Made by a program: the position numbers and the translations under genes. The notes beneath the pieces were generated by a model. The model ran no database searches. It was not told the DNA's origin and saw nothing but the letters and a program-made list of their open reading frames with translations. From Gammaproteobacteria bacterium SG8_30 (GTDB lineage Bacteria > Pseudomonadota > Gammaproteobacteria > Steroidobacterales > Steroidobacteraceae), in assembly GCA_001303245.1 (NCBI GenBank), contig LJNS01000005.1:1-46612 (forward strand): DNA of 46,612 nucleotides, in the 5' to 3' direction. This document shows positions 2,806 to 46,516 of this stretch, piece after piece (the first letter of the stretch is position 1; each line of letters starts with the position of its first letter).

Positions 2806-4050
2806 GTGCACGACCCGTTCGCGCTGTCCGAGCGGCTGGCCGGGCTCGAGGCAGCGGGCCTGCTGCGCCGGCGACGCAGCGTCCAGCGCGTCGCGGCCGA
2901 TGGCGTGCGCTGCGTCAGCGACGGACGGGAACTGCTGTCGTTCTGCTCCAACGATTATCTCGGGCTCGCCCGGGACCAACGCGTAGCCGAGACCCTGGCG
3001 GACGCCGCGCGCGAGCACGGCGCCGGTGCTGGCGCCTCGCACCTCGTCAGCGGGCACCATCGGGAACATCACGCGCTGGAGGAGGAACTCGCCGCGTTCA
3101 CGGGAAGGCAGCGCGCCCTGCTCCTCTCCACGGGATACATGGCCAACCTCGGCGTCGTCGCCGCCCTCGCCGGACGGGGCGATGCGGTCTTCGAGGACCG
3201 CCTCAACCACGCCTCCCTGCTCGATGCCGGGCTGCTGTCCGGGGCGAGGTTCTCGCGCTTTCCGCACGCGGACGCCGCGGCGCTGGAGGCACGCCTGGCC
3301 GGATGTGGACGGCAGCGCCGCCTCGTGTTGACGGACGGCGTCTTCAGCATGGACGGCGACGTCGCGCCGCTCGGATCGCTCGCGGACGCCTGCCGCCGGC
3401 AGTCGGCGTGGCTGGTCGTCGACGACGCGCACGGCCTCGGCGTGCTTGGCCCGGGCGGCCGGGGCTCGCTCGAGCTGCACGGACTCGGTCCGGAAGATGT
3501 ACCGGTCCTGGTCGGAACGCTCGGCAAGGCGTTCGGGACCTTCGGTGCTTTCGTCGCCGGGAGCGCCGACCTGGTCGACTTTCTCATCCAGCGCGCGCGG
3601 ACCTACGTGTACACCACGGCCCTGCCCCCCGCGGTGGCGGCCGCGACGCGTCGTGCCCTCGCGCTGTCGATCGCCGAGCCCTGGCGGCGCGAGCGCGTGC
3701 TTGGCCTCGTCGACCGTTTCCGCCGGCAGGCGGCGCAGACGGACCTGCCGCTGGCGGACTCGACGACGCCCATCCAGCTGGTGCTCGTCGGCGAGGCACG
3801 TGCCGCGGTGGCTGCGAGTGAACGCCTCCTCGCCCAGGGCCTGCTGGTACCGGCCATTCGGCCGCCGACGGTCCCGGAGGGCTCCTCCCGCCTGCGTGTC
3901 ACGTTCTCCGCCGGCCACACCGATCAGCAGGTGGACCGGTTGGTCGACGCACTCGTCGAGGCGCTGGCGGACGCGTCGGCCGCTGACCGAGAAGCCGACC
4001 GACGGGGACTGTCCCCGCAGGGGACTGTCCCCTCCTCGGTCGGCACCTGA
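2806..4050 (+). CDS. bioF: 8-amino-7-oxononanoate synthase
   Basis: 414 residues from a GTG start. A PLP enzyme that condenses pimeloyl-ACP (or -CoA) with alanine. Family signatures are FCSNDYLGLA near residue 50, GAGASHLVSGHH near 75, TDGVFSMDGD, VDDAHGLGVLG and the PLP-lysine motif GTLGKAFGTFG with K241. Enzymes of this family are usually about 385-395 residues. Here the last 20 or so residues are encoded by a palindromic GGGGACTGTCCCC repeat at 3994-4044, so the coding sequence has absorbed an intergenic-type element; these residues follow the catalytic fold and are probably harmless. The start is 20 nt after bioB with only a weak GGGGGCG site, suggesting coupling to bioB translation. Confidence 0.96.
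   Translation: MHDPFALSERLAGLEAAGLLRRRRSVQRVAADGVRCVSDGRELLSFCSNDYLGLARDQRVAETLADAAREHGAGAGASHLVSGHHREHHALEEELAAFTGRQRALLLSTGYMANLGVVAALAGRGDAVFEDRLNHASLLDAGLLSGARFSRFPHADAAALEARLAGCGRQRRLVLTDGVFSMDGDVAPLGSLADACRRQSAWLVVDDAHGLGVLGPGGRGSLELHGLGPEDVPVLVGTLGKAFGTFGAFVAGSADLVDFLIQRARTYVYTTALPPAVAAATRRALALSIAEPWRRERVLGLVDRFRRQAAQTDLPLADSTTPIQLVLVGEARAAVAASERLLAQGLLVPAIRPPTVPEGSSRLRVTFSAGHTDQQVDRLVDALVEALADASAADREADRRGLSPQGTVPSSVGT
3994..4044 (+). repeat. Nested palindrome, GGGGACTGTCCCC family, copy A
   Basis: Two perfect 13-nt palindromes GGGGACTGTCCCC (4004-4016 and 4020-4032), separated by GCA, are enclosed by complementary 9-nt arms GCCGACCGA (3994-4002) and TCGGTCGGC (4036-4044). The same layout recurs at 46450-46500 with an identical core but different, still complementary, arms. 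It overlaps the 3' end of bioF. Confidence 0.85.
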
Positions 4051-5737: not shown

Positions 5738-6426
5738 GCGGTCGGCGGCGCGATTTCTTCGTCACGGGCACGGACACCGGGGTCGGCAAGACGGTGGCCT
5801 CCGCGGGACTGCTGCACGCCTGGCGCTCCCGGGGCCACGCGGTGGCGGGGCTCAAGCCCGTCGCCTCCGGGTGCGAGCGCACGGCCGGGGGGCTGCGCAA
5901 CGAGGATGCGCTGGCGCTCGCGCGGGAGAATTCCCGCGACTGGCCCTACGAGGTCGTCAACCCCTACGCGCTCGAGCCCGCGATCGCCCCGCACCTTGCC
6001 GCCGCGGAGGCAGGCGTCGAGGTCGGCCTCGAACGGATCCGCGCGGCCTTCCGGCGGCTGCAGCAGGACACCGATGTCGTCGTCGTCGAAGGCGCCGGCG
6101 GCTTCCTGGTCCCTCTGGCCCCCGCGCTCGCCATGCCGGACCTTGCCGTCGACCTGGGCCTCGAGGTGATCCTGGTCGTCGGCCTGCGCCTGGGCTGCCT
6201 CAACCATGCCTTCCTGACCGCAGAGGCGATCCGGCATCGCGGTCTGGGATTCGTCGGCTGGATCGGCAGCCAGGTCGATCCCGGCTTCGACCGGCTCGAC
6301 GACAACCTCGCCTGCCTGCGCGCCGGCCTTCCTGCCCCCTGCATCGGGGTCATCGAGCGCCTTGCCAGTCCGGACCCCGCCACGGTCGCGGACCGGCTCG
6401 TGCGGCTCCCTCCTCTGGCCGACTGA
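5734..6426 (+). CDS. bioD: Dethiobiotin synthetase
   Basis: 230 residues. BioD closes the ureido ring of dethiobiotin from 7,8-diaminopelargonic acid with CO2 and ATP. Visible motifs are the P-loop TGTDTGVGKT (11-20), KPVASGCE (lysine and substrate loop), VVVEGAGGFLVPL and the conserved hydrophobic strand VILVVGLRLGCLNHA. Full length, starting at the ATG that overlaps the bioC stop. It is the last gene of the operon; bioA, needed for the step between BioF and BioD, is not in the window, so it must lie elsewhere or be replaced. A 9-bp stem inverted repeat follows 23 nt after the stop. Confidence 0.96.
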   Translation: MSGRRRDFFVTGTDTGVGKTVASAGLLHAWRSRGHAVAGLKPVASGCERTAGGLRNEDALALARENSRDWPYEVVNPYALEPAIAPHLAAAEAGVEVGLERIRAAFRRLQQDTDVVVVEGAGGFLVPLAPALAMPDLAVDLGLEVILVVGLRLGCLNHAFLTAEAIRHRGLGFVGWIGSQVDPGFDRLDDNLACLRAGLPAPCIGVIERLASPDPATVADRLVRLPPLAD

Positions 6427-9645: not shown

Positions 9646-10395
9646 ATGGCATCTGCAAGGAGCGAGGCGCTCCGCCAAGCAAAGGCACTGGACGGCGCAC
9701 CGGAGCACCACGTCGAGGGTCTGGTCGACCACTCGATGATGCGCGCGGTGTACGTCTACGAGGCGCCGGTGCGGCTTTGGCACTGGGTGACGGTGGTGGC
9801 GATGATCTTCCTGTTCGCCACCGGTTACCTGATCGGCAAGCCGCTGCCGGCCGTGGGGGGAGAGGCCAGCGATCACTACGTGATGGGCTACATCCGGATG
9901 ATCCACTTCATCGCCGGATACGTCTTCGCGATTGCGTTCGTCGGCCGCGTCTACTGGTGGATCGTCGGCAACACCTGGGCCAAGGAACTGTTCGCGCCGG
10001 CCATCTTCTCCGGCAAGTTCTGGGGCGGGTTCTTCCACCAGGTTAAGTGGTACCTGTTCCTGACGAAGGAACCGAGGAGCTACGTCGCACACAACCCGCT
10101 GGCGACCCTGGCGATGTTCCTCATGTTCGGCCTCGTGGGGCTGTTCATGATCTTCACGGGCTTCGCACTCTACAGCGAGGGCCTGGGGCAGGGCAGCTGG
10201 GCTGACCGCATGTTCGGCTGGGTCATTCCCCTGCTGGGACAGAGCCAGGACGTGCACACCTATCACAGGCTGGGGATGTGGATCATGCTGCTGTTTGCGA
10301 TGATCCACATCTACATGGCGTTCCGCGAGGACATCCTGTCCAAGCAGAGCATCGTGAGCACGATGGTCAACGGTTACAGGTACTTCAAGGACTGA
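9646..10395 (+). CDS. hoxZ: Hydrogenase b-type cytochrome subunit
   Basis: 249 residues. This integral membrane dihaem cytochrome b accepts electrons from HoxK and reduces the quinone pool, and also anchors the enzyme. About four membrane helices are visible: near 41-64 (LWHWVTVVAMIFLFATGYLI), 85-108, 155-180 and 215-235. Candidate haem ligands are the histidines in RLWHW, RMIHFIAGY, TYHRLGMW and MIHIYMAF. The ATG at 9646 follows GGGAGGC at 5-nt spacing and begins 26 nt after hoxG; an in-frame Met at 9550 is inside hoxG and not used. A long imperfect hairpin separates it from hoxM, so structural and maturation genes may be expressed at different levels. Confidence 0.96.
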   Translation: MASARSEALRQAKALDGAPEHHVEGLVDHSMMRAVYVYEAPVRLWHWVTVVAMIFLFATGYLIGKPLPAVGGEASDHYVMGYIRMIHFIAGYVFAIAFVGRVYWWIVGNTWAKELFAPAIFSGKFWGGFFHQVKWYLFLTKEPRSYVAHNPLATLAMFLMFGLVGLFMIFTGFALYSEGLGQGSWADRMFGWVIPLLGQSQDVHTYHRLGMWIMLLFAMIHIYMAFREDILSKQSIVSTMVNGYRYFKD

Positions 10396-10420
10396 GGGAG
10401 GCCCAGCGGATGGCCGGTGC

Positions 10421-10505
10421 GTGAGTCGTGAGTCGTGAGTGGTGAGTCGTCGGAGGCCAGTGCCTCCCCGGCTGTCCGACTCATGGTTCACGGCTCACGG
10501 CTCAC
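10421..10505 (+). repeat. Long hairpin between hoxZ and hoxM
   Basis: Twenty-eight nt from 10421 (three GTGAGT units) pair with 28 nt at 10478-10505, allowing G-U pairs, and the loop contains its own GGAGGC-CAGT-GCCTCC stem at about 10452-10467. A T-rich stretch (TTTATTTTC) follows and runs into the hoxM start. It could be a partial terminator or an RNA-processing or stabilising hairpin that keeps hoxKGZ mRNA above the maturation genes. A related arm sequence (GTGAACGGCGAGCGG) occurs at 42657. Confidence 0.7.
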
Positions 10506-10526
10506 CGTCCAATCCGCTTTATTTTC

Positions 10527-11147
10527 GTGACGCAAACCGAAACGATTCTCGTACTCGGTATAGGCAACGTACTCTGGGCCGACGAGGGTTTCGGGGTGCG
10601 CGCGGTCGAGGAATTCGACCGCCGCTACGCCTGTGGCGACGAGGTCACCGTGCTGGACGGTGGAACCCAGGGGCTCTACCTGCTGCCCTACGTACAGCAG
10701 GCTTCGCACCTGATCGTCTTCGACGCCATCGACTACGGGCTCGCGCCCGGCACGATGAAAGTCGTGCTCGACCGCGAAGTCCCGGCGTACATGGGCGCCA
10801 AGCAGATGAGCCTGCACCAGACCGGGTTCCAGGACGTGCTGGCAGCAGCCGAGCTCACCGGCCAGAGCCCGCGGCACCTCGTGCTGATCGGCGTGCAGCC
10901 CGAGGAGCTCAAGGACTACGGTGGCAGCCTGCGGCCCGTCATCAGGGCTCAGGTGTCACCTTCGGTCGACATCGCCGCGGAGTGGCTGCGCCGCTGGGGT
11001 ATCGACGTGGAGCCGCGCCAGGACCCGGCGTCTGCCTCGGTCAACGCCGGCGCCCTGGCGCTCGAGGCCTACGAGGGCGGACGTCCCTCCGAGGTCGACG
11101 CCTGCCGCATCGGCGACCCGCGCTTCATGACCAGGAGGAATTCCTGA
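10527..11147 (+). CDS. hoxM: Hydrogenase maturation endopeptidase
   Basis: 206 residues from GTG. It cleaves the C-terminal tail of HoxG once nickel is in place. The nickel-probing residues of this HybD/HyaD family are present at a constant offset from E. coli HybD: E20 (WADEGFG), D66 (VFDAIDYG) and H97 (MSLHQTGFQ). The start GIGNVLWADEGFGVRA is the standard family opening. No ribosome site is visible before the GTG, because the sequence upstream is the end of a hairpin and a T-rich run; no better in-frame start exists, so translation initiation may be weak. The stop overlaps the hoxL start (TGATG). Confidence 0.95.
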   Translation: MTQTETILVLGIGNVLWADEGFGVRAVEEFDRRYACGDEVTVLDGGTQGLYLLPYVQQASHLIVFDAIDYGLAPGTMKVVLDREVPAYMGAKQMSLHQTGFQDVLAAAELTGQSPRHLVLIGVQPEELKDYGGSLRPVIRAQVSPSVDIAAEWLRRWGIDVEPRQDPASASVNAGALALEAYEGGRPSEVDACRIGDPRFMTRRNS

Positions 11148-27497: not shown

Positions 27498-27616
27498 CAT
27501 GTGAGGTACTGCCTGCCGTTCCCGCCTCGCGGCCGAGGTGGCGCGGTGTCTGCGAGACCGAGCGAGTATCGGGGAGCGAATCGAGCGGACACCGCGCCGG
27601 ATCCCGGCCGCGAGGC
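27455..27616 (-). repeat. Palindromic dispersed repeat, copy 2
   Basis: Reverse-complement copy of the element at 601-762. The core 27505-27616 matches nearly exactly, including mirrored arms (GCCTCGCGGCC, and GCAGACACCGCGCC with one change). Similarity fades towards 27455. It lies just before the deoxynucleoside kinase gene. Confidence 0.75.
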
Positions 27617-46342: not shown

Positions 46343-46450
46343 GCATCTTCAAGAAGGGGACAGTCCCCTTCGGGGACAGTCCCCGGCGTCTTCGGTCAAG
46401 CCCTCGGCGGTCGGGCGGGGACGGTCCGGAATGACGTAGGCATCTTCAAG
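46331..46450 (+). repeat. 23-nt direct repeat pair
   Basis: The 23 bases at 46331-46353 recur exactly at 46428-46450 (they begin GGAATGACGTAGG and end CTTCAAG). Between and after them lie the GGGGACAGTCCCC palindromes. This suggests a duplicated element or recombination between repeats. Confidence 0.8.
46356..46384. repeat. GGGGACAGTCCCC palindrome pair, copy B
   Basis: Two 13-nt palindromes (46356-46368, 46372-46384) separated by TTC. It is the reverse-complement form of the core seen at 3994 and 46450, but I found no complementary outer arms here. Confidence 0.75.
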
Positions 46451-46500
46451 GCGGTCGATGGGGACTGTCCCCGCAGGGGACTGTCCCCTCCTCGACCGCC
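46450..46500 (+). repeat. Nested palindrome, GGGGACTGTCCCC family, copy C
   Basis: The core 46460-46491 is identical to 4004-4035. The outer arms are GGCGGTCGA (46450-46458) and TCGACCGCC (46492-46500). They differ from those of the 3994 copy at several positions but remain fully complementary, as expected if base-pairing is conserved. Confidence 0.85.
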
Positions 46501-46516
46501 CCCTCGGCCGCCCACG

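Follow-up and report, generated by a model that had tools for sequence, protein, structure and literature searches.

In Ruminiclostridium cellulolyticum, intrinsic terminators located inside operons set the stoichiometry of ABC importers, and the accessible part of the report describes such internal terminators as having a long GC-rich stem and a poorer U-tract (PMC9045158). As far as that text goes, these clostridial terminators appear to be the nearest demonstrated case that we found for the junction described here. In Xanthomonas, GGGAATC heptads are convergent, intergenic and often arranged as close inverted pairs (70 and 75 cases in two genomes), according to the available portion of the paper (PMC4692102). 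At genes 38 and 25 of phage T4, a stem shortens the distance between the SD sequence and the start from 22 to 5 nt and from 27 to 11 nt, respectively, in the part of the source that was accessible (PMC3014915).

The locus analyzed here lies in a 46,612-nt stretch of DNA from Gammaproteobacteria bacterium SG8_30, which we call the window; the genome of this species is an incomplete draft (74.57% complete, 113 contigs). A cell presumably requires more of the structural subunits of a [NiFe] hydrogenase than of its maturation proteins. Structural and maturation genes share one operon, and a boundary hairpin that recurs in several groups of Proteobacteria would be a simple, testable answer to this unequal need. 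Alignment with related genomes showed an inherited, terminator-like hairpin between hoxKGZ and hoxM in the genus, and showed that in the window species a dispersed heptad repeat was inserted into its tetraloop, with the stem base and the U-rich tract left in place.

We lean, with modest confidence, toward a putative mechanism in which the hairpin acts as a leaky intrinsic terminator inside the operon and lowers the expression of the maturation genes compared with hoxKGZ. Some polymerases would stop after hoxZ, making hoxKGZ mRNA abundant, and the remaining polymerases would carry on past it to transcribe hoxM and the rest of the maturation genes. The heptads would mostly be passengers, tolerated because the stem base, the U-rich tract and the hoxM start all stay in position when the loop takes up an insertion, although the heptads may still alter termination strength. 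Similar to the R. cellulolyticum terminators, as the accessible text presents them, the stem-loop lies inside an operon behind a gene needed in excess and combines a long GC-rich stem with a poor U-tract; unlike them, it belongs to a proteobacterial hydrogenase operon, its loop is filled with a repeat and its termination is predicted from sequence. A literature search, which lay largely outside the subscription papers on these operons, returned no report of a terminator-like hairpin at this hydrogenase boundary.

The features of the junction are collected in Table 1. The small subunit, the b-type cytochrome, the maturation endopeptidase and a HypC-like chaperone passed their curated NCBIfam cut-offs. 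The large subunit (893.6 bits vs 1101) and the HyaE-like hoxO (66.6 vs 210) matched below theirs, and the NCBIfam search gave no match for hoxQ. An earlier note on this DNA had described all other junctions of the operon as short or overlapping, which holds from hoxG to hoxL, where hoxG-hoxZ measures 26 nt and hoxM-hoxL -1 nt, compared with 131 nt for hoxZ-hoxM. The hoxM start codon, GTG, lines up with the ATG found in two congeners, G001 and G005.

Table 1. Features of the hoxZ-hoxM junction, in window coordinates
Feature	Position	Strand	Basis or remark
hoxZ, b-type cytochrome subunit, last structural gene	9646..10395	+	NCBIfam TIGR02125, 232.9 bits, cut-off 121.5
SD-like GGGAGG, directly after hoxZ stop, upstream of hairpin	10396..10401	+	best anti-SD energy in spacer
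Whole hairpin	10405..10518	+	114 nt; fold computed within 10396-10526
Outer, inherited stem, left arm	10405..10419	+	alignment with G001 and G005
Heptad arm, left, CGTGAGT units	10421..10449	+	repeat match
Heptad insertion, 82 nt, in ancestral GCGA loop	10422..10503	+	alignment with G001 and G005
Inner stem-loop, core of insertion	10452..10467	+	GGAGGC/GCCTCC at 10452-10457 / 10462-10467
Heptad arm, right, inverted	10477..10505	+	repeat match
Outer, inherited stem, right arm	10503..10518	+	alignment with G001 and G005; pair probabilities
U-rich tract TTATTTTC	10519..10526	+	sequence; U-rich tails at same place in G001, G004, G005, G029
hoxM, maturation endopeptidase, GTG start	10527..11147	+	NCBIfam TIGR00140, 207.9 bits, cut-off 151.8

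The hairpin between hoxZ and hoxM is real and far from chance: its MFE is -78.9 kcal/mol, whereas shuffled sequences average -49.6 (sd 3.9; z -7.5), and none of 200 shuffles was as good. The 28-bp imperfect stem of the earlier note corresponds to the heptad arms (29 nt each, 79% complementary), and its internal second stem and T-rich tract were likewise recovered, the latter as TTTATTTTC at 10518-10526, with seven T broken by one A, leading directly into the hoxM GTG. Beyond that description, we found the heptad nature of the arms, an older enclosing hairpin and the upstream GGGAGG. The hairpin is composed of two nested parts, namely an inherited, terminator-like outer hairpin and a heptad repeat inserted in its loop; the 82-nt insertion is placed by alignment, and its edge could move a few nucleotides. 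The outer stem still pairs in the window fold (probability at least 0.90 for 13 of 14 pairs and 0.49 for one) and ends at 10518, adjoining the U-rich tract, so that a GC-rich stem is directly followed by a U run, as in an intrinsic terminator. The short loop of such a terminator is found in G001 and G005 (4 nt) and is replaced by the 82-nt insert in the window, whose hairpin was flagged by neither our scanner nor the terminator scan. An Rfam scan gave only two microRNA-family matches, far under their gathering scores.

The same junction in related genomes carries the inherited part. In G001 and G005, a perfect stem of 14 pairs is capped by a GCGA loop and followed by a U-rich tail; between the two stems, one G-C pair is replaced by A-T, a compensatory change, and another by G-U. 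In the alignment, the 82-nt insertion falls between the GCG and the A of this loop. The U-tail is TTTTTC in G001 and the weaker CTTTCTCT in G005, and the U-tract of the window is also weak. G004, of the same genus, and G029, of the same family, have different stem sequences and the same design with a U-rich tail; thus, across these four genomes, the stem sequence turns over and the design persists. Absence of any hairpin in close relatives, which the earlier note had named as grounds for giving up its reading, was therefore not what we found. The outer stem is kept in relatives; the long stem that had drawn attention is a lineage-specific repeat rather than the conserved part.

Because the hairpin occupies most of the 48-52-nt spacer in G001, G004 and G005 (49 nt in G001 and 48 nt in G005), little room is left for a promoter, and hoxM would most simply be reached by read-through in the congeners. 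Between window positions 6000 and 24000, the only sigma-70-like site lies inside hoxZ at 9777 (shuffles give 1.2), and sigma-54-like matches show no excess (13 vs 14.9 expected).

We surveyed the junction in 102 loci; 80 of these are named and represent the best 80 of at least 576. A hoxZ-hoxM junction was counted when the two genes shared a strand and were separated by -80 to 500 nt (67 loci), and the main count took gaps of at least 30 nt (54 loci). Loci with longer gaps did not enter the count, including L112, L147 and L177, which a stricter scanner matched; in L068, the stop codon of hoxZ was assigned manually. Among the loci listed, a terminator-like hairpin was present on the coding strand in 30 of the 54 junctions with a 30-500-nt spacer, compared with 24 of 540 shuffles; on the opposite strand, it was present in 6 of 67. 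Of the remaining operon junctions in these loci that span 30 nt or more, 1 of 30 had one (Fisher p 8e-7), and the stricter scanner gave 27 of 62 hoxZ-hoxM junctions with gaps under 600 nt. The 30 matches include L149, L235 and L243, which are weak or probably due to chance, and the window locus itself was counted as a miss. By our grouping of titles, they comprise, among others, 11 Rhodobacterales, 5 Rhodocyclales and 3 congeners, and they are not independent because many come from few groups. Since 24 of the 54 junctions with room among the loci listed, as well as spacers below 30 nt, are devoid of a terminator-like hairpin, the hairpin is not required. In Rhodobacterales, it may simply end the transcript, with a separate promoter in the 240-300-nt spacer.

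Additionally, 12 of 106 plasmid records were examined, which yielded 11 loci with hoxZ adjoining hoxM. Among these, the terminator after hoxZ is clear in Afipia carboxidovorans OM5 and in Paracoccus denitrificans, and weaker candidates occur in Cupriavidus necator H16 and Rhizobium sp. T1470; none was seen at this junction in Fuscovulum, Acidovorax, Paraburkholderia, Bradyrhizobium, Rhizobium etli, C. taiwanensis or Sinorhizobium fredii. The twelfth record, from Azospirillum lipoferum, has no hoxZ in the stretch and no terminator match upstream of hoxM. The spacer holds other elements in some of the genomes. An annotated HigA-family antitoxin gene, above its NCBIfam cut-off, lies between hoxZ and hoxM in Acidovorax temperans. 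By eye, G025 has a HigA-like reading frame and C. necator H16 a possible remnant, and the HigA-type sites are L276 1685-1936, the hoxZ-hoxM spacer of L072 and L272 3809-4209. In a Sulfuritalea draft (L151 439-558), the same junction holds another inverted tandem repeat with ACAGAGAC-like units, unrelated to the heptads. Six beta-/proteobacterial loci (L118, L124, L127, L167, L170 and L174) have TTTACCTTGCGTT in common in the hoxZ-hoxM spacer, immediately ahead of the GC-rich stem and T-run.

The earlier note had suggested that attenuation or mRNA processing at this junction could set the ratio of structural to maturation proteins. For the boundary as such, the idea of attenuation gains from the U-tailed hairpin in four relatives and from the enrichment among the loci listed; attributed to the stem that had been noticed, it loses ground, since the long heptad stem is a lineage-specific insert with no sign of constraint at the RNA level.

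We also considered a different role for the hairpin, in translation. The lack of a ribosome site at the hoxM GTG, as noted earlier, was borne out: in the 20 nt nearest the start, the best SD energy is +1.0 kcal/mol, compared with -6.9 to -13.0 at six other window starts (hoxG, hoxZ, hoxL, likely hoxO, hoxQ and hypB), making hoxM the only one of the seven starts tried without a nearby SD. Upstream of the hairpin, there is a strong SD-like sequence (best anti-SD energy in the spacer -11.0 in the window species, G000; -9.3 in G001; -9.5 in G005), and the folded hairpin might place it beside the hoxM start, alone or in combination with a terminator role. Without the hairpin, we count a spacing of 11, 10 and 10 nt in G000, G001 and G005, respectively, which is within the 5-11 nt expected of such a split site and is nearly equal although the hairpin measures 114 nt in the first and 32 nt in the other two. 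G029 does not have this spacing and, with room after its hairpin, has an SD there (-5.8). The arrangement resembles that of T4 genes 25 and 38, where, in the accessible text, the SD and the start are also apart in sequence and are brought close by a stem between them; it differs in that the operon is bacterial, the stem is also terminator-like and its use in translation is predicted. However, an SD-like sequence of -9 or better was found within 14 nt of the stop at 8 of 54 stops without a close start. SD scores also discriminate poorly here, given that the energy exceeds 0 in 9% of 55 predicted genes and that -4 is attained at 32% of random positions. Moreover, base pairing can involve the SD itself: its partner is CCC in the window (probability about 0.54) and the tail in G005, and in G004 part of it lies within the stem. 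For these three reasons, we keep the split site as a rival rather than as the main claim and regard it as rather unlikely. It is doubtful, though conceivable, that one hairpin does two jobs, metering maturation-gene RNA as a leaky terminator and bridging the halves of a split ribosome-binding site, with the entry of the heptads costing neither; both proposed jobs would depend on the stem base only, so that the repeat could have enlarged the hairpin to 114 nt without loss.

The arms of the window hairpin are tandem CGTGAGT heptads and form one of about 20 such arrays dispersed in the genome. A 127-nt query gave 20 matches there; a pattern of three heptads, in which up to 3 mismatches were allowed, gave 69, compared with 15 for the reversed control. 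We grouped the matches into 21 places, 18 of them two-armed with convergent arms; this count leaves out a match pair at L058 2632-2651, and L051 1719, L052 1122 and L063 are one-armed or doubtful. Counted by hand, 17 of the 21 lie within 35 nt of a stop codon, compared with 15% of intergenic positions in the same loci (2333 of 15420), a rough control that counts single positions and relies, around most elements, on our codon-based gene calls. By eye, the elements at L052 1122, L061 2982 and L065 2966 start right after the T-run of an apparent intrinsic terminator.

Elsewhere the pattern is sparse. With up to 2 mismatches, it occurs in 5 of 58 other genomes of the order and, of five congeners, only in G005, once. 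When genomes were drawn evenly from the class, 10 of 369, the window species included, matched with at most 1 mismatch, although the reversed control equals the pattern in G378 and nearly does so in G579, since GTGAGTG reads much alike backwards. Inverted pairs were seen in 2 of 12 other genomes inspected (G024 and G320). At one L062 and two L056 junctions, relatives have shorter spacers without heptads: 4 nt in G001 and G005 against 89 nt at L062; 0-12 nt in G002, G003, G004 and G005 against 66-76 nt at atpD-atpC of L056; and 6-36 nt in G002, G004 and G005 against 95-126 nt at atpA-atpG of L056, where the alignment at the site is poor. The L062 comparison covered six relatives, of which G004 carries about 300 nt of unrelated spacer, and G002, G003 and G029 matched at one flank only. 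At L066, the relatives' spacers range from 9 to 114 nt, without heptads and without a clean empty site. By these comparisons, the heptad elements are insertions.

Like the Xanthomonas GGGAATC repeats, as far as their description was available, these heptads are intergenic, tandem and often in inverted pairs; unlike them, they consist of a different heptad that is not of the G-quadruplex type. In that source, 83% of the repeats are common to two species (PMC4692102), whereas the copies described here are absent from congeners at the compared junctions. They also share a dispersed, intergenic and palindromic character with REP/REPIN and stem-loop repeat families, as far as the accessible source describes these (PMC2267715), but their arms are tandem units of varying number with varying cores, and a search for Y1 transposases identified no partner. 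That search, limited to the Y1 family, found one gene in the genome; it is an improbable mover, being flanked by a different inverted repeat, GGGACATTCCTATTTTCC (L271 1145-1162 and 2669-2686). No target-site duplications were seen consistently by eye, and a literature search on the heptad sequence gave unrelated work only. Targeting of hairpins in general was also rejected: the flanks of 18 elements pair no better than permuted ones (p 0.52; 0.72 without the hox copy), and the hox copy is near the extreme (0.03), unlike the other elements.

The heptads are unlikely to be general terminators because the atp operon contains two copies, at atpA-atpG and at atpD-atpC, where stopping transcription would do harm. 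Selection on them at the RNA level found no support either, since the sense strand folds better than the antisense strand in only 3 of 10 elements between same-strand genes. Both observations, together with the dispersed, lineage-specific nature of the family and its absence from relatives at the compared junctions, would fit a neutral insertion that disabled the old hairpin, leaving the whole structure functionless in the window species. We hold this to be improbable, considering that base pairing of the outer stem persists immediately ahead of the U-rich tract. The loop insertion also offers a natural experiment that shows how much a hairpin of this terminator-like kind can withstand.

Intercistronic hairpins, such as that of the Rhodobacter puf operon, can stabilize 3′ ends after cleavage. 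A hairpin that shields hoxKGZ mRNA from exonucleases in this way, as a stabilizer or processing site, would yield unequal amounts without termination and would suit a very stable structure that is located right behind the last structural gene and kept in relatives, but a stabilizer has no need of the U-rich tail kept in all 4 relatives examined, and we consider this role unlikely.

The window contains other repeats. Palindromic repeats of the GGGGACTGTCCCC type are located at 3992-4048, 46349-46388 and 46448-46504, and a 72-nt inverted repeat with 99% complementarity is formed by two copies 27 kb apart, at 601-672 and 27545-27616.
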